Assembly (NCBI GenBank): GCA_037178675.1
Contig: JAYMGJ010000050.1
Span: 124,001-188,000 of the forward strand
Origin: Scleroderma bovista
Taxonomy: Eukaryota; Basidiomycota; Agaricomycetes; Boletales; Sclerodermataceae
DNA: 64,000 bases
Direction of reading: 5' to 3'
The notes under the pieces were generated by a model that had not been told where the DNA came from, made no database searches, and was given only the letters and a program-made list of their open reading frames with translations. Each line of letters opens with the position of its first letter. Positions within the stretch are counted from its first letter, which is position 1. The position numbers and the translations under genes were made by a program. Positions 49,347 to 64,000 of this stretch are shown piece by piece.

Positions 49347-49385
49347 AGCTCGTATTCACCCATGACCAGTCATCAGCAAATCGTC

Positions 49386-49592
49386 GTATGTCTGAATGAC
49401 CTGGGTGTCTGACCATGCCTGGGAAATGTCTGGGATCAGGACACACTCTGGAGCCAGGCTTGTCAGACAGAATTCATACTCATGTTCCAGGCATAATGTC
49501 AGACATAATTACAGATAGATTCAGGTCATGACCAGAGCCCATCAGTCCATTCAGACAATGAGCACAATGGGTCCAGACAATCCCAGACTGCA
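49386..49592. repeat. cluster of TGTCTGA/TCAGACA short repeats, likely subterminal repeats of Plavaka A
   Basis: At least seven copies of TGTCTG(A) or its complement (T)CAGACA in about 200 bp, in both orientations, starting just beyond the stop codon of the Plavaka A fragment at 49626. Subterminal arrays of short motifs are binding sites for transposases in CACTA-like elements. The assignment to this element is by position. Confidence 0.45.
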
Positions 49593-49625
49593 AGTGCACA
49601 CCTGTACAACACAAGTTACTATTAA

Positions 49626-50060
49626 CTAAAATACAAGCATATTTGCCTGGTGGTCAATGTACTTATTTACATAGTAAGCCTTAAAGGCATCTAAAGACTT
49701 GGAGAAGTGGAGGTCAACAGGAATAAATTCACTGCCATAAACTCCTATAAGGTGCGCACCCTGGACCACTGAATCCAGAGAGACGACAGATTGGACATGC
49801 CGTCCATTGTTATCCACTTCCGGCGCCACGATCCACATGCCCGTCAACTTGTCAGGCTCGTCAGCAATTGGGATAAACCAGTTGAGTAATGCACATGAGT
49901 AGCGGTGTCCTGCATATTCGCAAGAAAAAAATAGGTGCACCCTTCCCACCAGTAGACTATGAAAACCTTCCGTATCCACACCTCCCTTTGCCACATATAC
50001 ACAGTCATAGCGTGGAGGGCCCCCCTGCCAAGAGGGTGTTGCACGGATTATTTCACGGTG
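49626..50060 (-). pseudogene. Plavaka transposase relic A, C-terminal piece
   Basis: Minus-strand frame HREIIRATPSWQGGPPRYDC, then SCEYAGHRYSCALLNWFIPI, DEPDKLTGMWIVAPEVDNNG and VVQGAHLIGVYGSEFIPVDL, ending DAFKAYYVNKYIDHQANMLV plus one residue at 49626. This is the conserved C-terminal region of Plavaka transposases. It starts exactly at the left border of the 50063-57308 element. The codons before the break (GVGGM) lie at 57311-57325, so the protein was cut by that insertion. Confidence 0.8.
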
Positions 50061-50062
50061 CA
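50061..50062. repeat. target-site duplication CA (left)
   Basis: CA here and CA at 57309-57310 flank the 12-bp inverted repeats. Removing the element plus one copy gives ATG CAC CGT on the minus strand and restores GGM-HRE in Plavaka A. Confidence 0.65.
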
Positions 50063-50074
50063 CATCAGGAAAAA
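50063..50074 (+). repeat. terminal inverted repeat, left
   Basis: CATCAGGAAAAA, the exact inverse complement of 57297-57308. It is followed by an imperfect palindrome, GCTATGTAGCATAGCC (50081-50096). Confidence 0.8.
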
Positions 50075-50358
50075 CCTTTTGCTATGTAGCATAGCCACCC
50101 AGGTACCAAGTCACCCAGAGACTCGATCGTAATATGGCGCATCAGGCACGTGCTCTGTTGCACTATCCAGCTGTCACCGCGTGACACGTAGCACATGGTT
50201 GCTGCTATCGCTGACAGCACAGTCTGGCCAGCTCTCCATAGTCATTGTAGCCCCATATTCACACTACACATCCTCAAGAGTCCCAGTAGCCTATGTTGTT
50301 CTTACATTACCAACTTGGCAAGACCAAAGTGCAGATTAAAATTGTAGCCACAGGTATA

Positions 50359-53300
50359 CTAATCAGCCAGGGCAACGAAAGTATCTAAGTCGATGTACGA
50401 GTTAACATGAAACACGCTTGCTATTTCAAGCACATTGTCAGACGTCCAATCCAAACTGTTGTTCCTTCCACACTGGGCTTGAAGATGGCAAGGGTGGGCG
50501 AAGTGATCAGCGCTGATCACCGACACGTTACGCTGATGGTTGTGCGTTGAATGGGTGACGACAAACTGGCCGGAAACGGGATCGCGACGACGGAGCGAGG
50601 TGAACCATTCGACGTACGCGAGTGGATGCAGGTAATGGCCAACATGCTTTGGAAGCTTGAATATGACATGGACTTGAGCGATACGGACCGCTGAAATGCT
50701 TGTTAGCACACCCTCGTTGCGTCGATGAGGCTGGGTACATACCATCGAACCTAAAAAGATCCCTCGGTTGATGTCCTTCATCCCACACAAACGCTGTATC
50801 AAATCTTGCGGGGGACTCAGCCTTGCATCCACTAGCGGCGACCTTCGGCCTGGCACGAATCTTCTGCCAGCTACTGCCATGTCCGGTAACCACGCTAGGT
50901 CCATTCGCAACATATAGCTGGTTAAATACTTCGAATTGATCTGATTCCATGGGGAACACCACTTTGTCTCGAGTTGCGCGGGAATTGAGGAAATGCTTGA
51001 GCGCCACCAGAAACTCGGGCGCTTTGTAGTCACTTTGTAATTGCTGAACGGACACGCGCCTGGCAGGGGATTTGGCCACTTTATAGGCCGCTTTCGCTAG
51101 CACAACCACCTCGGTCAATAACTACCACAGGAGCAGCAAATGCTACATACCTGACGGCTTTTGTGCAGCAAGATGATCCGCTTCGTCACCACCACCCTCA
51201 CCCAGATGGTCACCCACGTCTGAATCGGCTTCTGATCCGTCATCCCCTCCGCCCGAGCTTCTGTCAATGGCGTCCGTGCTTGCAGACTTCTTAAGCACCC
51301 TCCAGGCGTGGTAGGCGCTCTTGTGATGGATCGCCTCTTGGCGTTGAAGCCACAAGGCCATCTGTTCGACATAATCGTGTTTGTTGCTCGCGTGGTAGGC
51401 GTCCTTAGCATAGTCGATGTGTAACCGTTCAGGGTATTCTGAGTTGTATCCATCAGCACTGCCAAGGGCTCGGATGGAAGAGACGTAGTGGACAAGGGAA
51501 TGAATCTTGGGAACATTGAAATGTTCGTGTATTCCAAGCTCCACAAGGACGTCTTTATGCGTGTGGAAGAGGCGAAGGCTGTCCTGCATAGCCGTGAGTG
51601 TCTTGTCTGTGTGTTGCTGGAACTGTGCATAGTAGATGAAATCGAGAAGTGAGCAGGCCATTACGAGGACAGTTTCTTCGGCTGCACCGGACAGGAGACC
51701 TATAAAAACCCTCTCCATCTCCTTGTGCTCTCTGCCTGTCCATTGGGAGACTGCGGAAATCCCTTTCTTGAAGTGGCGAAGGCCAGGGTATCGAGTTACG
51801 GCCTGAAAGCAGGTATCCATCTCCTTTTCGCCGAGCACGCTTAGGCACCACTGCACGAGATGGTCGTGGAATATGCCCTTATGGAGCTGATGGAGGATAT
51901 CGGGAGTGATGCAGGTGAAGATGTCGGTGAAGGGAAGGTCCTTCCAAAAGGGTTCGAAGACTTCGTGCAAACCTTCCTTATCAAACTTACTTGATCGTTT
52001 GTTTCTTCGCATCCGCCTCAAGGTCTTCAACATGTCAACTGTACTGCGGCATGCGCATTCGTCAAGGTCTCCACGATTTTTCGTTTTCACCAGACAGCGA
52101 GGGCAACGGCTCTCCTTGTTGCAGCCCACAAGACACTGCTCAGGAAAGTTGGCAACATATGCAGCCAGAATCGGATGAATTCGTCGCACAAATCCGTCAG
52201 CGCAAACCATAGCCCTTCCTTTCCAACCAGCATCGACCAGTGGACACAACAGCAAAGACATCGCATAATGGAATAGATGATATCCTGCGATGGAGCGTGT
52301 TTTCTTATGGAAACACTGCAGTTTGGACACAGGTAAGTAGCCGATAAGAATCGTTGCGTGCGCTGACACTTGTCTTTTGACATCCTTCGAGATATTCCCA
52401 ATGGTTAGGTATACAGGCCATGCCTTTTTGTCCCCACTGAACACAGACAGCGCTGTCTTATTGGACGACAAGATCACCGGCGCCACCACTGCACCCTCTG
52501 GCAACTTTCCCTGTACATCACCGTCGCGTTAGTCGCATTCGCATCTTTCGGAATCGATGGTAAGTACTTACTTGGGTCTCCCACCACCAGTCACCGGTCC
52601 ACATCTCATCATAGATCCGACTCTCTCCCTTCGCATCCATATACGCACGCTCTGGGACATACACCATCATATCTCGCAAGGCAGGGTTCCCAATAAGCTC
52701 CTCCACGCATTCAACCAGATCCCTTCACCATAGTTCTACCGTCTCCTGCTTCATGACCCCATCCTCGCCCACCAAGTCTCCCTCAACATCAATCATCTCA
52801 CATGTCCAAGCTGGGCTGGTATATAAAGAATCGACACGCTTGAGGAAGGAGTGGGCGTTATCGAATGAAAGGCCACTCTTCCGCATCTACAAGTCGGTCG
52901 CATTCAGCGTTGAGTCAGTGAGTCAATCTTTATTTGCTTACGTGCGATAGCTTTAGAAGCTCATTGATCTTCGTTTTCCCAAGGTTTTTCATCAAATATT
53001 GTGCAAGTTCCCATTCATCTTCATCGCGGAAAGGCACCCATTCGCTCCTGCCCTTTTCAAGGTCTTTGGCTTCCATAGACTTGAAGACCGTCTTCTCCTT
53101 CCCCAGTATTGTAGCGGCGACTCCTGGGTATTGTTCGGTGAAGCGTCCAGAGGCTGGCCAACGGGGTAGGTCTCCATTGTCCTCCTCCATTCGTGCACAC
53201 TTGGATGGCGGCTCACTGAGATCAGGTGGCCCAGGATCAACATCAACATGAGACAGGTGAACCAGGTGCCCATCTGGAACATCGAGAGCATCGTCTGGAC

Positions 53301-53526
53301 CATCCATAGCATCAAATTCATTCATCAACTCGTATGGATCACCTGGTGCATCGTCGTTCATGTGCTCGGGAAGCTGATCATCTTCGTCCTTCGATACCGT
53401 CAATTCCATCCGTTCAAGGAGCTTTGTCCGTTGATCGTGACATGCAGGCGACTGCGCTATATGCCGCTTGATCCCAGCCTCTGTGGCTATAGGTTTCAAG
53501 CAATAGTTGCAGCGGTGGGGGGCCAT
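50359..53526 (-). CDS. Plavaka transposase B with N-terminal zinc finger
   Basis: ATG 53526 starts MAPHRCNYCLKPIATEAGIK, a C2HC finger (CNYC, then H and C in RHIAQSPAC), then an acidic segment and WVPFRDEDEWELAQYLMKNL. Exon 52706-52560 has VPERAYMDAKGESRIYDEMW and WWWETQ. The long exon from 52504 has LSSNKTALSVFSGDKKAWPV (Plavaka core), RCLVKTKNRGDLDEC, TDIFTCITPDILHQLHKGIF (family signature) and NSEYPERLHIDYAKDAYHAS. Later exons have KAPEFLVALKHFLNSRATRD and HPLAYVEWFTSLRRRDPVSG, ending VFHVNSYIDLDTFVALAD at 50359. About 900-950 residues. The junction near 51130-51155 has no fully clean in-frame splice (the obvious donor gtatgt is phase 1), so it may carry one lesion; otherwise it looks complete and young. 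Confidence 0.85.
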
Positions 53527-53860
53527 GGTATGGTAGGTCAGTCATTCAGTCGTCTCCCAATATCACACTGATTGATCTCTTTGACAATTTGCAATATACC
53601 AGACCATCAGACACAGTCTGCGGACCGATAGGTGGGGCTTCATGTCAACGCAATGTTGACAAATATCCGTTTTTTATTTTTCAGATTATCCCATGACCAC
53701 GTCGCAATACGCGTTCGTGTCGTGAACATTTGTTGATATCTACAAACAAGCCATGTGCAAACAGCAGCTATAAGTAAGTTGTGTTCTGCCATTCATCGTC
53801 CCAACCCAACCCAACCCAACCCAAACTTTGTTCCAGCCGCACACTCCCAGCTCTAATCAC
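53527..53860. promoter_or_regulatory. divergent promoter of the transposase B / DUF6532 pair
   Basis: 334 bp between the two ATG codons. It contains a (CCCAA)5 tract at about 53800-53824 and a T-rich stretch (about 53670-53683). It is the only intergenic space inside the element besides its ends, so both passenger and transposase promoters should lie here. Confidence 0.45.
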
Positions 53861-56800
53861 ATGCAGGCCTCAAGCAGTGGTCTCTATCGCAACGCAGACA
53901 AAGAAAACTATAGAGGTTAGTCTGGCCAAACAACAATGCAGATCGCGACTGACAATGTTCAAAAAAAAAAGTGCCTGGTGGTCGGGTGTGCCGACCATCG
54001 GAACAAGTGAGGCAGGCTGTGGATGAACGAGAAGAGACGGTCCAACGCTGTGATGCCAAGGCCCAGAAGGACCGTGAACGTCGCCGCCGCCGCCGCTTAA
54101 TGGAGGAAGGGAGTGAGAACGAAGATGAAGAAGACAGTGATGAACTCAAAGAAGATGACCTCAAAGATGAAGAAGGCACTCATGTAGGTCATCCCATCAT
54201 TTTTGTTGGGTGCCACACTGACAAAATATCATGTTCAGTTTAGTAGCCATCCCGTTCCTACTAGGCTTAGTGAGGTGCCTAGGCAACACCCCCTCATGTA
54301 CAGCAAGAGCAAAGTTCCCAAGGTGGTGGGCGGAAACATTCCCGACCCCAGCTATGAAGTAAGTACTATGGAGTATTGTAGTCAAAAAGTATTCTCATCA
54401 GGACAAGGAAACTTCTTTGGCTCGGACGGTGAAGACGCAGGACCGACCGTGCACGAACCTTTGTCGGAACGACAAACCGTCCAACACAAGAAAAACCGCC
54501 GTGTTGAACATGCGAGCTCCAAAGGTACTGTGACAGACACCATGAACCGGTGAGACCATCAATCCATTGTGCAAACAAGTTCTTCATTGAGCATACTAGC
54601 AGTGATGTTCATGCTAAGAGGCGACGGGAACCCATCGAAGAGGACAGTCCAGAGACAACCGTCGTCAAGGCGCAAAAGCTCACTGAGCATGAAGGTCGTC
54701 TGCGCGCCAGGGACTACGATGACGTTACCCAAGAGTTTGTCAACACAGCCATTGGAGACTATTGGGCATGCCTGTGTGCCGAGAGTCCGATGCCTGACCA
54801 TACACAGGAGACGGCTCTTCTGAACACATCTTGGGCCAAGGCACTTCAGACTACAGGAGTTAACCTTGTGCGGACACCCCAGCTCGCCAAACTCATAAGT
54901 GCCATACCAGTCGTCTCAGTATTATACTATTATGATTTGATATAGATCACCAACCGTGGCTCGCAAGTTTGCGGCGAGCTCAAGGCCAAGGTTCGCCCTC
55001 TAGTCGAAGTCATGTTCAATTTCCACAGCAGCCAAACTAAATCGGCGATCAAGAAGAATCGCGCCCTAGTGGAAGAACTTAAAGAGGGTGCAAGCTTCAC
55101 ATTCAAGGTTTGGTGTCCTGCTGTCAAGACCGGTTCTCCTCGACGATCTTACTAGGAGGTCCAGAGGTGCAGGGAACTAATGAGGAGGTAAGTCCAGACA
55201 CTAGTAGGTGCTAGTTAGTGCGGAGAGTCAAGTCTGGGTCAAACGAACGAAGTCCGGGCACTAGAGAAGCACAGGGAGTAAGTCCGGACCGTGGGAAAGT
55301 GGTCCGGAGTTGAGCGCAGCTTGTCCGGAGCGAAGGACATCCCAGAGGTGGGATAAGTCCTGAGAGGTCTAGCGTCGAGTCTGGGACAGAGGTGGCTTTT
55401 GCCCTCGTGCAAGTAGGAGACTTGCTAGGATCGGACATAGGACCAAGGGGACGAGATAGGACAGAGGCCGGAGTTGGCCGGAGTTCAGGAGAACAAGATG
55501 GGATTAGGAGAGCATGGTGGGTAGTACAGAGTGGGGAGTATCTTAGTCGAGATTTGATCTAAGGACTACTAGGCCGGAGTATGGTAGTTTATATAGTAAT
55601 GAAACTAAGGTGAGTATATACGGTGACAAGTAAACACCTTAATGTCGAGACAAGGGATGGAGCAGAAGTAGACAGGAAAATAAAGCAGGTACAAGAAAAT
55701 AAAGCAGGGACAGGAAAATAAACCGGAGCAGAAGCAGACACGGGGAACTAGAGTTACAGGGACGACAGAGGAAAAGCAGGGACAAGGGAACTAGGTCGGA
55801 AGAGGACAGGTAAGGGTCAGAGGTGGACTTAACTAATGTTAAGTCCGGAGCGATGTCCAGGACCGGAGGAAGCGGGACCGGAGGAAGTGCAAGAGCGGAG
55901 GGAGTGCACAGGTGGAGGAAGGGCGGAGTAGCCAGAGGAAGGTCCGGAGTTGGACATGGAAATGTCCAAGGCCATTGGTGGACCTATCAGAGGGAGTGGA
56001 GCGGAACAGGAGCAGACCTGAGCCGGAGTTGCATGTACCAGCCGGAGTTGGGCTAGGTCGCAGACCAGACAAAGGGAGTGGCCGGACTGAAACCGGAGTA
56101 GTGACTAATGGTAGGTACAGGTCCGACATGGAGGAGTTAGACCGTGGATCTGTCTAGAGGAAGACAGGGGTTAGTCCTGAGGTGGAGATGGACATAGTGA
56201 CTGGAGTTGAGCTGGAGTGCAGCTATGGGGCTGGAGATGGCCAGACTAGATCCGGAGTTGCATCTATGCCTAAGGAGAGGTCAGGTGGGCCAGGGTTAGA
56301 CCAGAGTTGCAACTGGGAAAAGTATGGATATGACACCTGCATGGCATGCTGGTTGTAACGACTGATATTTTGTGGACAGCATAGGGCGCTCCTGCAAGAC
56401 GAGTGTCGCGGCTTTCTCGAGGCACCAATCATACAGAACATCATCAATACCATGTGGTTCACGAATAAGAATGACAAAGGCATCAAGCACCATACATGGT
56501 TCAAACCATTCCCTCTGCCCGCTCTTGCATTGGTGCTGACAGCAGTAAGTGTTATTTGCAATGTTTGTTGCTGGGTTGTTTGTTGCTGATGTCATGGCAT
56601 AGATCAAGTGCTGCATAGACGAGTGGGTAACAGGCACGCGTGCGGACACTGCTTTTACAGTCCACGACTACCGTACTGCATATGAGTCCCACCTGAAGTG
56701 TCTGCAGGACTTTGACGAGGCCACGAAGGAGTATGGCGTGCTCAAGGGAATTTGTGCAAGAATTTATGAGGACGGGCGGTGAGTATGTAGTCTGCATTAA

Positions 56801-56946
56801 TTACAGATACTGACTGTCTAGCTAGTGTGCATTCAGGAGTGCCTGCACTCACCACGGCGCCTCAGAATGTGGTGTCGGTGCAAATTATTGCAGCCACGAT
56901 CAAGGAACACCAGGAGGGATCGACGACAGAGGACAAGTCGGATTGA
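53861..56946 (+). CDS. DUF6532-domain protein carried by the transposon
   Basis: ATG 53861 (MQASSSGLYRNADKENYR). An intron (53919 to about 53972) joins to VPGGRVCRPSEQVRQAVDER and a basic/acidic coiled segment (KDRERRRRRRLMEEGSENED). The third exon has DPSYEVSTMEYC and EGDAG-like acidic sequence ending VTDTMNR. The fourth has DVHAKRRREPIEEDSPETTV and VTQEFVNTAIGDYWACLC. The DUF6532 core runs ITNRGSQVCGELKAKVRPLV, FNFHSSQTKSAIKKNRALVE and LKEGASFTFK, then an LTR-enlarged intron, then HRALLQDECRGFLEAPIIQN, IINTMWFTNKNDKGIKHHTW, KPFPLPALALVLTA and KCCIDEWVTGTRADTAFTVH, with TGA 56944-56946. DUF6532 proteins are numerous in mushrooms and have no known function. All junctions can be read in frame, so it may be intact. 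Confidence 0.78.
55117..55121. repeat. target-site duplication CCTGC (left) of the solo LTR
   Basis: CCTGC is repeated exactly at 56336-56340, directly next to the TG...CA ends. Confidence 0.8.
55122..56335 (+). mobile_element. solo LTR (Gypsy-like), 1,214 bp
   Basis: Begins TGTCAAGACCGG and ends GGATATGACA, with inverted termini TGTCA/TGACA. It is flanked by 5-bp direct repeats CCTGC at 55117-55121 and 56336-56340. No internal coding region is present, so it is a solo LTR left by recombination. The interior is purine-rich with many GTCCGGAGT/CCGGAGTTG repeats and a short tandem (AGGAAAATAAAGCAGG) at 55672-55725. It lies within an intron of the DUF6532 gene. Orientation is not certain. Confidence 0.82.
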
Positions 56947-57308
56947 TTAATGTAGCTAGCTTTGTGTTGAGCATGAAATGAATTATATTGCATTTTGTAC
57001 TGCATATTGCCTGATTAAGAAATAGAAACTATGTTGTGCTATACTGATGTGATAGCAAATGACAATGGAAGTATTCCAATGGCATGATAGAAGCTGAGGG
57101 TTCTATATCACAGTATATAGTCTTGGTAGCCTCCATAGCAGCCTTCCTACAGTGGATATATATTTACATGTCAGACTATGGCCACTATGGAGTACTATAG
57201 ATTTCATGCACAGTGCTATATTGCCTTTATATTGGGGACTTGTCGATGGAGCTTTGAGTGCTATAGAGGCTATATAGTACTATATTGCCAAGTATTTTTT
57301 TCCTGATG
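56947..57308. repeat. right terminal region of the two-gene transposon with CTATA-rich subterminal repeats
   Basis: No gene. Many copies of CTATA/TATAG within palindromes (GAGTACTATAG, GTGCTATATTGCC, GGCTATATAGTACTATATTG). Similar GCTAT/ATAGCC motifs sit next to the left end. Probably transposase-binding subterminal repeats. The last 12 bp are the terminal inverted repeat. Confidence 0.5.
57297..57308 (-). repeat. terminal inverted repeat, right
   Basis: TTTTTCCTGATG, the inverse complement of 50063-50074. It is followed by the CA duplication (57309-57310). Confidence 0.8.
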
Positions 57309-57310
57309 CA

Positions 57311-58203
57311 TCCCCCCTACACCTGACTGATCACTTGGCGTGCAGAATGTTGCTGTAGTGGAGTAAAAAATGCATACTTTGCCTTGAAAAAGAGGGCAGA
57401 CGCGAAGGTCTGTGCGATCCCCTGGTATCTCAGCATCAGGGTAGAGCTGGTCATAAAGGAAGCGTTGAATTGCCTCTTGCAGACCCTGGAGAGAACTTGT
57501 TGGAGCGCCGCCAAGGTTCCTTCACGGCTCTGATGTGCTTCGACTCCGTAATTGATGAGCACAATCCATTCGGCACACCAAATAATTTGATGAGTTCACG
57601 ATAATGCACCATGGCATGTTGGTGTGGGAGGGATAAATGGGCACGCATGCCAGTTGTAATAAAAACAGCATGTTCTTGATGGAAGCATTCCACAGCAACG
57701 TCGATTGCATCAAGAGTTTCTTCGTTAAGGATCAAACGCTGGACCAAATAACAGAAATCCAGAAATGCGCTCAGTGCACGCACCATGCCAGGGGGAACAT
57801 GTTCAGCTATGGCCGGTAAGTATACTTCATCAACACATACATAAGTGACATACTTGGATAAAATTCGTGACTTACTTACTTTCATTAGCACCTTGGAATC
57901 ATCACCAGTCCATTGTTTGAACCCTTGCCCTTCTGGAAACCGCCGCAGCACAGGAAAGGATGGCACGGCTGCAATCCTAGTAAGAAAAAACACGTCTCAG
58001 TAGGGTGGCAGTGGCCACTGGTTTGCAATGACTTACCTGCGGTCAATATCAGCGATAATCTCACCAGCACGCTGCTTCCCATGCTCAAACTCTAGATACT
58101 CATTAATCCAGGTGACAAGGTGGTCCTTGAATGTGCCCTTGATCAACTGGTGAAGGAGGTCCGGGGTGATAAGTTCGTGAATGTCCGCGCGGGGAAAGTC
58201 TGA
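57311..58203 (-). pseudogene. Plavaka transposase relic A, central piece
   Basis: Minus strand: PFTSDFPRADIHELITPDLL and IKGTFKDHLVTWINEYL (signature region), then VPSFPVLRRFPEGQGFKQWT, KYVTYVCVDEVYLPAIAEHV and LCSSITESKHIRAVKEPWRR. After a frame change near 57490 come FLYDQLYPDAEIPGDRTDLR and PSDQSGVGGM, which stops at the insertion border 57310. About 100 residues usually found between the WRR block and FLYDQ are missing and frames shift, so the copy was already decayed or has decayed since. It belongs to a different Plavaka subfamily from copy B. Upstream exons are not seen; the copia element begins at 58361. Confidence 0.8.
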
Positions 58204-58360
58204 AGTGAAAGGCTATTAGATGCTACTAAGCTCTGCTGTAAGTAGAATGACAGACGGATGTTGAAGTCACACGTGCACCCGGCATAAACCGTCAATGAAG
58301 TGCGCACAAGACTGCAACCCATATTAGTGTAGACTTAGTAATAGTCCTCTTTAGAGTAGA

Positions 58361-58534
58361 TGTTACATGTCACAGTCACATGTCACACTATTTGTTGTAT
58401 ATAAACAGCGTCCACCGCTTATATAAGAACAACAGCTCTTGACCAGCTACTGCTACCATCTCAGGTTGTGCACTCCACCCAAACAGGTGAGTTGGAGTAG
58501 CAGTTCCTTTACATACATAGGTATTGCTTCAACA
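58361..58534 (+). repeat. 5' LTR of the copia element
   Basis: 174 bp starting TGTTACATGTCAC and ending TGCTTCAACA, directly before the primer-binding site. It contains TATATAAA at 58398-58405 and a second TATATAAG near 58421. No second LTR is available in the window for comparison, so the left border rests on the TG start and expected size. Confidence 0.6.
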
Positions 58535-58548
58535 GGTTATGAGCCCTG
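58535..58548 (+). promoter_or_regulatory. primer-binding site for half initiator tRNA-Met
   Basis: GGTTATGAGCCCTG immediately after the LTR is complementary to the anticodon arm of initiator tRNA-Met (CAGGGCUCAUAACC in yeast), not to the tRNA 3' end. Drosophila copia primes in this way with a tRNA fragment cut in the anticodon loop. Confidence 0.75.
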
Positions 58549-58917
58549 TGAGTGCACTGTGTGCAGCAATGCACCAGGCAGCGCTCCAGCTCCCTGAGTG
58601 TCACTTTAACTAGCTTGATGCTGTGGACCACAGTGAGCTCCTAGCTGAGCCCCTGCACAGCCACAAGGTGAAGTTGGTCGACGACTTGCACCAGACAGTG
58701 AGCTCCTAGTTGAGCACCTGTATTGCCACAGGCGAAGTTCGTCGATGACTTGCGCCAACCATGGCGAACATCGTCGACGACTTGCACTGGCATGACCTAG
58801 TCATGAGTTAGCTGTTGACAGAAGTGCTTTCACTAGCACTCAGGTGTTTCTTCTTTTCTTGCTTGTCCGTTGTCACATTCACTTGCTGACTCCATTGACT
58901 CCCAACAGAACATCACC

Positions 58918-61900
58918 ATGTCCAGTGCTCTCGACAAAATGGTTCCCCTTTTCACTGGCTCCAATTGGCAGCAGTGGCATACCTCCATGCAGGCCTACCT
59001 TTGGGCACAAGGCCAATGGTATGTCTATTCGACGACTCAACCCACTGATGGCCATGACGACCGAAAGGACTGGGACGACAACACCGAGAGAGCGCTCGGT
59101 AATATCACCTTGCGCCTTGCCCCCTCGATCCAGGTCGCTGTCTCAACTCTCGACAGCGTTAAGGATGTCTGGGACTACCTGAAAAAGAACTTTGGCGCCC
59201 CAAGCATTGGTTCCGCCTACGCTGAGCTTAGCAAGCTCCTGGCCACCAACATCCCCGCTGGCTCCCATCCCGCTCCCACAATTATGAAGTTGCTTAGCCA
59301 CTTCACCTACCTGAAGGACGCTGGCTTCGAGTTCCCTGCCCCCGTGCAGGCAATGATTATCCTTTGCAAGCTCCCTCCCACCATGGAGGTTGTAGCTCAA
59401 ATCCTCAGCCAGACGGCGCCGGATGAGATCAAGAACCTCAAGCCTGATGGGATTGTCAAGGCTGCCACGCTCTCTTTCGAGCAGAAAGGCGCCTCTTCCC
59501 GTGGCGGTGGTAAGGGCCCCCAGGCCAACAAGCTTAGCGCTGTAAAGCGCAAGCCAGCTGACCCAAAGTTCACCCAGCAGCAGCAGCAGCCTCAGAGGCA
59601 GCAGCAGCAGCAAGGTGGGTCCAACGGCGGTACGAGCAGAAATGCTCCTGTCCAAGGACAGGGAGGCCGCACTCGACACAGCGGCAAGAAGGCTCGCGCT
59701 CGCCGCGAGAACGCCCAACAGGCAGCCTTTGCTACATATGTCCACTACAATGGACCAGAGCCCACCATTGACCCTCGTGCCTTGGCCCACACTCCCGGTA
59801 CTGCCCACTACGGCCCCCCCGCATTCACAAATACTATTAAGGCCTTCGACTTGGCACACCGCTTGAGGGTAGAGCCCTCCTGCCAAACCATCCGCACCCT
59901 CGATCAAGTTGTGTCGTTGACGAGCGCGAACCTGGACCAGCCCGAGGCCGGTCCCTCCTCGCTGAAGTGCCCTCGTCTTAAGGAGTGCATCACCATGTAT
60001 GAGGAGGATGCCATCTCCCTTGGGGATGAAGAGCCCTTCGCTCACGAGCCCTTCGCTGATGACGAGTTCGATGAGATCGATGCGATGGTCCTCGACCGCT
60101 ACAACGCGACATCGATGGCGATGGGCGCGGAGGCCAGCCTCTTCAGGCAAGTACCTTCTGCACGCGTGCTGACCGACACTGACACACTCCCTTTACATGT
60201 GCGCTTTACGCCATCACTGTATATAGCGAGTAGTAACTACAATTTGTCATGTCGTGTCTCCTCGAGTAATGCATATATCTGTTCGTGTTCGAATGATGTG
60301 CGCTGTGCTGGCTGTAAGGGAAAAATGGTTGACGATAGCGAACTATCTGGTGCTTTCTGGCTCCTAGACTCTGGTGCATCACGCCATTTTACCGGTGACA
60401 TAGGCGATTTCGCCTCCTATAATGCGCTAAAGCGAGCACACTACGCCAAAACGGCTAATGGTGTAGCACTGATTGCTGGCATTGGCACGGTATTACTCCG
60501 GTGTCTAGACCACAACACTGGGGATGAGAAAGTTATCACACTCACCCAAGTGCTCCATATGCGAGGCGCTACTGCACACCTCATTTTTATGGGCGAAATG
60601 CTCCAGCGTAACTACAAAGTCACTGGAGATAAGAGAGGCATTAGCCTCACTCATAAAGCTGAACGCCTATGGTTTGGGCCAGACGCAGAAGACAATCGTA
60701 ATGTCATTTTTGGGATTAGATCTATCCCGATAATTAGATCTAACTATATTGCCTCCGTGAGCAAAGTCAATTATGACATTATGCACTGGAGATTCGGGCA
60801 CCCCTCAAAGGAAGTACTCCGATGCGCGCAAAAACATACGCAGCGCTTCCTGGAGATCCACTTTCCAACTGAGGATTGTGTTTGCCCTGGATGTGCTCTT
60901 GGCAAGATGCCCAATCGAGCTTTCCCAGAGAACGAAAGACGTGCTTCCAAGCCCTTTGAGCTGGTGCACTCTGATCTCAAATCCTTCCCGGTTATGTCAT
61001 ACCAGAAGTTTAAATACATTATCACATTCTACGACAATTATACCTCTCACGCCTGGACTATGCCTCTTCGCTCCAAAGCTGCAGCGATTACGGCTGCCAA
61101 AGATTTCCTCGAAATGGTGCGTGTCCAACATGATATGCACGTCGTTGGATGGATGTCCGATGCCGGCAGAGAATATAAATCCGATCTGTTTGATCGAGCA
61201 CTCCTTGAGAAAGGAATTAAAATATATCAAAGTGCTCCGAGAACCCCCATGCAGAATGGCCACGCCGAGCATTTAGGGCGCACTCTCATGGATAAAGCTG
61301 AGTCTATGCGGCATCAAGCCTGCATTCCTGACTCCTGGTGGGAATTTGCGTTCGCTCACGCAACCCACATTTACAACCGTACTCCAGTAGCTCGCCTGCG
61401 ATGGTGCACCCCCCATGAAATGCTTAAGGGGGAGATGCCTAACATCAACCACCTACGTGTGTTTGGCTGTGGAGCATTTGTATACCTCCCAGCAACGGCT
61501 AGAGCAAATAAGATGGCTCCCAAGTCGGAGCTTATGACTTATATCGGTGTTGCCCCTGGCAATGAGCGCAATTTCTTGTTTATGCGCTCCACCAATGCAG
61601 TGTTCACCGTGTCAGAATATATGGCCGCTACGTGGCAAACTCACAAGACTATGATTTATAGTTATTAGTTTTGATATATTAACTGCTCTACCTACAAGAT
61701 AAATAGCTCGTAGTTGTACCCTGTATACTCATCGCGTTTGGACCTGGTTCGCACCCATCCACCCATCGTGGTCACCCCGATCGACTCAGCGTGCGAATTC
61801 TAACACACCGCTGCCCACGCCGTCTTTGACAAGCGTCATTTCCCTCGCTGCCCCAAAAACAGGCGCGAACCTCTCGAGAACCCTTTCGGAAGGGCAAATC

Positions 61901-63207
61901 CAAAACCAGCCACTGATCGACCAGGGAATCCCCCTGATGATACTGACAGTGATGATGATGTGGAACAGGACCATGGCTACCCACATCCCCAAGTGCAGGA
62001 TGATGATCCAAAGTGCGAGGAACCTGAGGCTCCTGAGGAAGAGCCTAATCAAATAAATCCTCCCCATACGCCATCTCCAGTGCCTCCACCGGCACCAAGA
62101 ACGCCTTCACCGGCGAGAAATCCGCCACCTCCAGCACTGCAGCGCCCTGGCCGAGCTGAACGCCACCAGAATGCTCCGCGACCCCCTGCAGTTAATATAC
62201 CTGCCCGCCCCCAACGTGAACGTAGAGCGCCATTGCACCCTGGTAACGTGTATGGTGAGCGGCAACATCCCGTTGAGCAACTCCGGGATATCGAAAGTGC
62301 CTCTCGATGGCGAGAAACAGTGGGTGAGGCCCCTCGGCCCCCACAACCGGACACACCAGACCATATCCCTGGTGGTTTCCCCGACACCTCTGCAATGCCC
62401 AGTGAGGAAGATGTGCAAAAGATGTGTGAGGAAGGGGGAGCAAACCTAGTCCAATACCTGATGGGCAAAGCCCTCGAAACCCACAACCCTCAATACGAGA
62501 GTGTCCGCAACTGGTCCTATAAGGACATTGCTCGCTTACCCCAAGCTGAGCAGAAACTCTGGCAACTTGCTTGCCAAGAAGAGCTCGATGTGCTGCGAAA
62601 GCGCAAAGTCTTTGAGCTAGTTGACTGTCCCCGAGACCGGAAGGTCATAAAGAATCGATGGGTCTTCAATGTAAAATCGGATGGCCGCAAGAAAGCCCGC
62701 TTAGTAGCAAAAGGCTTCTCCCAGGTCGAGGGATTAGATTTTGACCAGGTCTTCTCACCAGTCGTGTGCTTTGAAACAGTGCACCTCATGCTTGCGCTTG
62801 CCGCACTTGAGAACTGGTACATTACTGGACTTGACGTCCGGAGTGCCTACTTGTATGGCAAGCTCAACGAAGAGATCTACATGGAACAACCCGAAGGGTT
62901 TGCAGTTCCCGGGCAAGAGCGCAAAGTGCTCCACCTCTGGCGTGCCCTCTATGGCCTCAAACAGGCTGGCCTAGCTTGGTGGCGCACACTCAATGAGTCT
63001 TTCAAAGAGCTCGGGTTTGAGCGCCTTAAATCTGAAGCAGGCATCTTCTTCTACAAGAAGAAAGGCACCAACATCGTCATTGGTATTATCTACATTGACG
63101 ACGCATTATTCTGCGGCCCTAACAAGGCTGTTGTTGATGCCATCAAAGTGCAATTCATGCACAAATGGGAGTGCAGAGACCTTGGAGAACCTAAAGAGTT
63201 CCTCTGA
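58918..63207 (+). pseudogene. copia gag-pol polyprotein, interrupted
   Basis: ATG 58918 (MSSALDKMVPLFTGSNWQQW), gag of the UBN2 type, with a Gln-rich segment (59575-59612). Protease: FWLLDSGASRHFTGD. Pre-integrase: MHWRFGHPSKEVL with CPGCALGKMPNR (zinc site). Integrase: ELVHSDLKSF, WMSDAGREYKSD and PMQNGHAEHLGRTL hold the D,D,E residues. The frame runs into the inserted solo LTR and stops at 61668. It resumes after 61810 in the same frame: AAHAVFDKRHFPRCPK, a Pro-rich linker, then reverse transcriptase NRWVFNVKSDGRKKARLVAK, TGLDVRSAYLYGKLNEEIYM, YGLKQAGLAWWRTL and IIYIDDALFCG (the YxDD-like site reads YIDD). A TGA at 63205-63207 replaces the usual Gly of FLGMRI. Without the LTR and its duplication (201 nt) the frame would be continuous from 58918 to that TGA. 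Confidence 0.88.
61610..61805 (+). mobile_element. solo LTR inside the copia polyprotein, 196 bp
   Basis: Begins TGTCAGAATAT and ends GAATTCTAACA (inverted ends with one mismatch). It is flanked by 5-bp direct repeats CACCG at 61605-61609 and 61806-61810. It has an ATAAATAG box near 61701. Its size fits a small copia LTR of a family different from the host element. Confidence 0.85.
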
Positions 63208-63254
63208 ATGCGAATCACTCGCAAAGGTCGCGCTATCCACCTGGATCAATGCAC

Positions 63255-64000
63255 TGTGAGTCAAAGTGTGGATTTGGGTCGGAGTAATAACCCAAACACA
63301 ACACCAACAAAGGACTACAAAAATGTGCGAGTGGTGGTTTACCTCCGTGGTGTCCAGAGAGGATATGCTGAGGAGGGGGAAAGGGGATCTACACCAACAG
63401 GGTGATGCAGACAGTGATGCAGGATACTCCTGGGGTACAGGAGTAATAGAAGACGAAGGGGATAGGGGTGTGGACTCTTCCTAAAGCCTAGGAAGTGTCA
63501 AAGCAGGGATTGGGTTGACTGAGGTTGAAACAGCAATACTACACCTAGAGATTGGTGCAGCAAGGGGACAAGGGGGCTCCTGACGTCCAGAAGCAATGAG
63601 AGATGAAGGATTGACTGGCTAGACTCCGCTTGAGCCTAGAGAAATACTTGGATTTGAATGGATTGAATAAACTTGAGATATTAGAGCCTTTAGACCTTCA
63701 CTGAAGCCTACAAGACTCAAAGAGCTGAGGGGATACTGACTGAGAGAGTCTGAGAGAGGGATAATTTCGTGCAATTTGGTCTTTTCACTGGGCTGAGCCC
63801 AGGGGTTTAAATACATGGGGGGGCACAGCATTAAAGTACAAAAAGAGAAGGGAGTAAGCAGAATTTGTCAAGGATTGGTAAGGGATTGGTAAGAGCTTTG
63901 TAAGGGGTTTGTAAGCGATCAGTAAGCAAGGGATAAGCAGGAATGAGTAAGCATAGGAAGCATGAATAAGCTGCTGAGTAAAGGAATGAGTAAGCTGCAT
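63255..64000 (-). mobile_element. LTR-like sequence truncating the copia element (continues past the window)
   Basis: Homology to copia ends at TGCAC (63250-63254) and a new sequence starts TGTGAGTCAAAG. On the minus strand it holds TATTTAAACCCC (near 63806-63817) followed by a pyrimidine-rich CTCTCTCAGACTCTCTC tract, which looks like an LTR promoter reading leftwards with its CA end at 63255. The right part (63860-63960) repeats GGTAAG/GTAAGC motifs. The other border and target duplication are outside the window, so this is tentative. Confidence 0.4.

Follow-up and report, generated by a model that had tools for sequence, protein, structure and literature searches.

We report here that, in the genome of the fungus Scleroderma bovista (assembly GCA_037178675.1), a lineage of Plavaka DNA transposons regularly encodes two divergent genes within its ends, one for a transposase and one for a protein of the DUF6532 family. 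One member lies in the window, the 64,000-nucleotide stretch analysed here (contig JAYMGJ010000050.1, positions 124,001-188,000, forward strand), as an insertion of 7,246 bp (50063-57308) that interrupts the transposase gene of another Plavaka. All genome-wide counts below come from this one assembly; the family searches scored only the best candidates, and locus totals are those among the matches listed.

The insertion is bounded by exact inverted ends of 12 bp, CATCAGGAAAAA, a sequence with no other exact match in the window, and is flanked on each side by CA (Table 1), as a preliminary description of this DNA had reported. That description also placed the element inside a different Plavaka whose reading frame is restored on excision, and this held up. 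With one CA omitted, the outer minus-strand frame reads through openly as ...SGVGGM-HREIIRATPSW..., and the rejoined C-terminus aligns unbroken, from residue 9-11 to 215 of 215, with 72-92% identity at 17 other genomic places (best at C115, C267 and C499), some of which contain an internal stop codon. Judged from their sequences, these paralogues show the empty site of the insertion. The outer Plavaka is also CATCA-ended. Within the insertion, a transposase gene (PF18759, minus strand) and a DUF6532 gene (PF20149, plus strand) stand head to head, and ten other frames gave no Pfam family. The insertion is thus a structurally complete DNA transposon of PlavakaB type, a class discussed below, that duplicated 2 bp of target on entering an older Plavaka.

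Because 12 bases could occur by chance in one window, the ends were counted across the whole genome. There are 151 exact copies of CATCAGGAAAAA (73 forward and 78 reverse), against 0 + 1 for a reversed-pattern control, and these ends are a genuine family. Facing copies at most 16 kb apart, which we call terminal inverted repeat (TIR) pairs, number 34, with lengths clustering near 3.4 kb and 5.9-6.1 kb. A Plavaka transposase is present in 17, every one of which has DUF6532 as well, in divergent orientation; the other 17 contain neither gene, and by match listings no pair has one gene alone. The preliminary description had named a same-ended copy with a transposase and no DUF6532 as one case that would speak against it, and none was found among the 34 pairs. 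These contents, first scored with a smaller selection of matches, came out the same when repeated with a fuller one (150 of 168 DUF6532 and 123 of 148 Plavaka matches, the 25 Plavaka matches left aside being further fragments of the same loci). Nine two-gene pairs were read as DNA, and the eight besides the window have both genes in the same arrangement. Twelve gene-less pairs, likewise read as DNA, have no match to the transposase or the DUF6532 protein; the remaining five (C340, C472, C489, C539 and C546) are known from match listings. The predicted target duplications are also present: identical 2-bp flanks occur in 17 of the 21 pairs read as DNA, the window included, and in all nine that bear a transposase, whereas identical 3-bp flanks occur in 0 of 21. 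Among the 17, four have one flank in common and perhaps represent one insertion; counted once, they bring the figure to 14 of 18. The flanking bases show a loose preference only.

Across merged Plavaka loci, DUF6532 lies within 10 kb of 52 of 122 (the same selection of matches was used) and within 6 kb of 42, 40 of the latter being divergent, whereas a control with KDZ transposons gave 2 and 1 of 150 at these distances, and chance predicts about 3.3% and 2%. Transposases were also sorted by identity to the window copy, using 78 of 96 matches (18 second fragments or spans under 200 residues were dropped) and a thinned DUF6532 list. DUF6532 then lies within 10 kb of 24 of 31 loci at 73% identity or more and of 11 of 16 at 41-55%, divergently in every case, and of 12 of 31 at 29-38%, where 8 of the 12 are on the same strand. 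Of the seven loci at 73% identity or more without DUF6532 within 10 kb, five (C113, C7, C139, C826 and C579) retain the start of a divergent DUF6532 gene; at C34 a DUF6532 match lies about 13 kb away, and at C714 none was seen in the 2.5 kb read upstream of the transposase. Among Plavaka loci with the outer-type C-terminus, DUF6532 lies within 10 kb at 2 of 26, and both of these (the window and C278) hold a B-type transposase themselves; of 98 loci with that C-terminus, 7 have DUF6532 at up to 10 kb and 3 at up to 6 kb, one of these 3 divergently, which is near chance. The identity classes, the exceptions and the outer-type counts together tie DUF6532 to particular Plavaka lineages rather than to Plavaka or repeat-rich DNA in general.

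The region is nested, with an outer Plavaka, the window element, an insert resembling a solo long terminal repeat (LTR) and a neighbouring Copia element, and three of the 17 two-gene pairs (C267, C345 and C487) are 12.7-14.6 kb in length and probably contain additional insertions; both circumstances could favour a pairing produced by chance adjacency in transposon-rich DNA or by a misdrawn border. Such an origin is nevertheless extremely improbable and, for this genome, contradicted. Both genes lie within exact ends in 17 of 17 pairs, 2-bp duplications flank 9 of 9 of those read, the genes are divergent in 35 of 35 loci at 41% identity or more that have DUF6532 within 10 kb, and the KDZ control is low. 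Chance adjacency was rejected on these grounds of TIR pairs, orientation and control.

Counted from the other gene, a listed Plavaka lies within 10 kb at 51 of the 86 DUF6532 loci; the other 35 have none at that distance. DUF6532 matches at C225, C143 and C195 (L059-L061) are in stop-free frames; the C143 and C195 matches have a divergent Plavaka at 3.4 and 5.9 kb, and the C225 match has none listed within 10 kb. Another arrangement occurs at C126 and C146, where DUF6532 shares the strand of a Plavaka at 32-33% identity and lies about 7-8 kb from it. The similarity of these two copies to each other ends at a CATCAGCAAA end beyond DUF6532, which delimits candidate longer Plavaka elements (C126:5274-15459 and C146:13977-26441; L070 and L071); no matching target duplication was found for either, and the borders are tentative. 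By coordinates, the same-strand arrangement recurs at six more loci. If the C126 and C146 borders are right, DUF6532 was either present early and then moved, or gained more than once.

Both genes are under purifying selection. Among nine copies, the ratio of nonsynonymous to synonymous substitution rates (dN/dS; NG86, pairwise, stop codons skipped) in divergent pairs is 0.12-0.19 for the transposase core, 0.21-0.43 for its N-terminal exon and 0.10-0.24 for DUF6532; near-identical pairs give mostly higher ratios from few changes, as expected of decaying insertions. As the ratios are similar, DUF6532 has been kept across transpositions about as strongly as the transposase. With all nine copies, the two proteins have strongly correlated distance matrices; with the six non-redundant copies, the correlation is not convincing. 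These values bear on whether DUF6532 is a captured rider, neutral to transposition and perhaps useful to the fungus. Some Plavaka lineages have no DUF6532 nearby, and in another set the gene seems to sit elsewhere and in the other orientation (C126 and C146), which would suit a rider. However, a dispensable rider predicts transposase-bearing pairs that lack DUF6532, of which there are none against 17 with it, and the dN/dS of DUF6532 is about as low as that of the transposase core between copies at dS about 0.5-1.1. A neutral rider is therefore improbable. The preliminary description had called DUF6532 a passenger; the gene does travel within the element, but its behaviour is more that of a conserved constituent than of an occasional rider.

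The Plavaka group was described by Iyer et al. 2014 (per PMC8290104), and PlavakaB is a published lineage (Kojima 2025, PMC12730594), with termini 5'-CATCA..TGATG-3' defined in section 3.2.2 of that paper, a 2- or 3-bp duplication and, in the CMCT clade, a C(2)C and an H(3-4)H motif located after the second Asp and before the last Glu. The window element shares the PF18759 domain, its CATCAGGAAAAA..TTTTTCCTGATG ends correspond to the CATCA..TGATG termini, its duplications are of 2 bp, and its lineage has C(2)C and H(3)H in the corresponding interval; on sequence features of domain, termini, duplication and motifs, it is a PlavakaB. Some published PlavakaB elements carry an extra gene, TET/JBP, which likely aids escape from methylation silencing (PMC12730594), whereas here the second gene is DUF6532 in 17 of 17 transposase-bearing pairs, and a Pfam scan of 15 element frames found no TET/JBP dioxygenase family. 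DUF6532 does not turn up in a text search of the PMC12730594 main text (the single 'duf' match is apparently an author name in the reference list). In the literature searched, a single paper mentions DUF6532; in the passage concerned, it lists the domain beside Plavaka among extra domains of two Ganoderma species and draws no link there. The novelty suggested in the preliminary description thus needs dividing: judged on the open-access main texts searched, a systematic DUF6532 partner of Plavaka is new, but the element type with its CATCA..TGATG ends had already been published.

The subterminal sequences bear on what DUF6532 might do. CTAT/ATAG motifs were counted in the 320 bp at each end and compared with 200 dinucleotide shuffles (Table 1 gives the window copy). 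At the right end there are 16-19 against shuffle means of 6.2-8.0 in eight of nine full copies, and 8 against 3.7 in the ninth (L026); the left end is milder, with 6-11 against 3.1-5.6 over the nine. The arrays are retained in both gene-less copies tested, and five gene-less 3.4-kb copies have about 240-316 bp of subterminal sequence in common with the window copy.

By analogy, we give roughly even odds to DUF6532 being an accessory transposition factor that acts at the element ends, TNPA-like in role. The protein, which would be nuclear and mostly helical with a basic N-terminus, would act at the CTAT-rich subterminal arrays and help to assemble or regulate the transposase there, and same-ended derivatives without genes would be mobilised in trans. 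TNPA and TNPD of En/Spm are produced from one gene by splicing. The likeness to En/Spm lies in a transposase accompanied by a second element-encoded protein, in asymmetric subterminal arrays and in defective copies that keep their ends; the elements differ in that the ends are CACTA there and CATCA here, and in that two divergent genes are present here. Pfam scans found no TNPA family in DUF6532. In plant CACTA elements, TNPA shows no conservation from one element to another; it binds the subterminal repeats, and both it and TNPD are required (PMC2613891).

A bolder proposal, which we put forward tentatively and somewhat short of even, makes DUF6532 the dedicated partner subunit of a mushroom transposase lineage with a RAG1 fold. 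Gained on one or a few occasions, it would have been maintained by selection as an independent counterpart of RAG2 or TNPA. The catalytic core of the PlavakaB-lineage transposase, a DDE enzyme of RAG1/Transib-like type, models as a RAG1-like fold. RAG2 is a beta-propeller. Compared with RAG1, Transib and RAG-like transposases, the partner here is a DUF6532 protein, predicted to be mostly helical, unlike RAG2. A sequence search of the PDB gave no match at E 10 or below.

Alternatively, DUF6532 may be an anti-silencing or regulatory factor that binds the DNA of the element, so countering methylation or driving its own promoter, and is dispensable for cut-and-paste. A gene that is element-encoded, under selection and clade-restricted suits such a role, as does the probable anti-silencing function of TET/JBP in other PlavakaB elements (PMC12730594). 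Loss of CpG varies among copies (observed/expected 0.37 to 0.97), and the two altered Asp codons of the window transposase, now Asn, both stand in contexts compatible with a CpG-to-CpA change, so methylation pressure is plausible. VANDAL21 of Arabidopsis is likewise a DNA transposon that encodes a second, non-transposase protein, VANC, and offers a precedent for anti-silencing. It belongs to the MULE superfamily, with unrelated proteins. Against this role, five DUF6532 homologues scanned contain DUF6532 alone, with no catalytic domain found, and the retention of end arrays in gene-less copies fits a trans-acting mobility factor more directly. We consider an anti-silencing function unlikely, if less so than a neutral rider.

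Our findings suggest that the DUF6532 family is part of transposon machinery and not an ordinary fungal gene, and they give this orphan mushroom family a likely biological home in the loci near Plavaka and the TIR pairs that enclose it. If DUF6532 is indeed a partner subunit, many DUF6532 genes annotated as fungal host genes would be transposon genes. Should the association with Plavaka hold elsewhere, gene counts and claims of lifestyle-linked expansion for the family would need correction. The pairing also makes a two-protein system in a RAG1-fold lineage of transposases accessible to testing, and a single genome that offers lineages with a partner, without a nearby partner and with a possibly rearranged one opens the question of why some transposases acquire one.

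The window copy is probably a decayed member of the lineage. Although complete in structure, as first described, it is doubtful in activity. Its transposase core frame is open, and the presumed first catalytic position, in the SSDKT motif, is Asn here, whereas all eight other copies compared and 103 of 107 homologues have Asp; because Asn replaces this Asp, the copy is probably inactive or not autonomous. A second position (52148-52150) is Asn in the window and Asp in 115 of 119 homologues. C142, C145, H343, H347, E364 and E367 are each kept in 115-118 of 118-120 homologues, and D111 in 110 of 119. Pfam DUF7501 matches the zinc-finger-like region with E 0.0071, under its cut-off.

The preliminary description counted two genes and nothing more in the element; the two genes stand, but a further insertion of 1,214 bp lies in an intron of the DUF6532 gene, whose PF20149 matches are at 54748-55119 and 56404-56713. 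Its TGTCA..TGACA ends and 5-bp duplication make it look like a solo LTR. It is absent from the C271 copy (L020), which is 96-97% identical to the window copy, and a gene-less CATCAGGAAAAA element on C204 contains a stretch 90% identical to the insertion (L018:930-2161).

Table 1. Features of the window element and of the Plavaka that it interrupts (window coordinates)
Feature	Position	Strand	Basis or remark
Left target-site duplication CA	50061..50062
Left terminal inverted repeat CATCAGGAAAAA	50063..50074	+	exact match
Left subterminal region	50063..50382		6 CTAT/ATAG motifs; shuffle mean 3.1, 19/200 shuffles reach 6
Transposase gene, several exons	50359..53526, approximate	-	open reading frames; tblastn to 8 other copies
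Transposase C-terminal part	about 50359-51121	-
Transposase core exon	51143-52528	-	PF18759, E 7e-91, 305.3 bits vs cut-off 26.3
Presumed first catalytic Asp codon (SSDKT motif), Asn in this copy	52460..52462	-
Transposase N-terminal exon with zinc-finger-like Cys/His motif	52930-53541	-	finger read from sequence
DUF6532 gene, spliced	53953..56946, approximate	+	PF20149, open reading frames, comparison with P0001; putative splice sites, from sequence
DUF6532 basic N-terminus, frame	53953-54243	+
DUF6532 domain exons	about 54748-54909, 54946-55107, 56380-56544, 56603-56778	+
1,214-bp insertion, TGTCA..TGACA ends, in DUF6532 intron	55122..56335		5-bp duplication CCTGC at 55117-55121 and 56336-56340
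DUF6532 acidic C-terminal tail and stop	near 56946	+
Right subterminal region	56989..57308		18 CTAT/ATAG motifs; shuffle mean 7.7, 0/200 shuffles reach 18
Right terminal inverted repeat	57297..57308	-	exact match
Right target-site duplication CA	57309..57310
Outer Plavaka, C-terminal coding part (frame 49626-50062) and 3' terminus CATCAGCAAATCG at 49371	49371..50062	-
Outer Plavaka upstream of the interruption (frames 57270-57521, 57451-57996)	57309..58230 (58230 is the extent traced)	-

Several gene-less elements have features of their own. Those of exactly 3,410 bp on C1 (two places), C181 and C193 (L009, L010, L015 and L016) have identical flanks and are probably one insertion copied inside a larger repeat; the TIR pair listed at C489 is likewise 3,410 bp. 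L023 (C315:16869-20256) is flanked by TTCTCCAA and TTGGAGAA, mutually inverted repeats without a direct duplication, and is perhaps a larger palindromic element. A second gene-less set (L012, L014, L018, L019 and L022) has the same 12-bp ends followed by other bases, mostly CTGGTAATGCCATA, and L014 (C151) contains a putative Gypsy-like polyprotein frame, read from sequence comparison.

Elsewhere in the window, a Copia-type retrotransposon with gag, integrase and reverse transcriptase domains (58837-63207) adjoins the outer Plavaka on its upstream side; a search of 57500-64000 found no direct repeats of at least 60 bp, and two LTRs were thus not seen there. Ordinary fungal genes are also present, encoding a protein kinase (PF00069, 19022-19957) and a Brix-domain protein (PF04427, 20932-21903).

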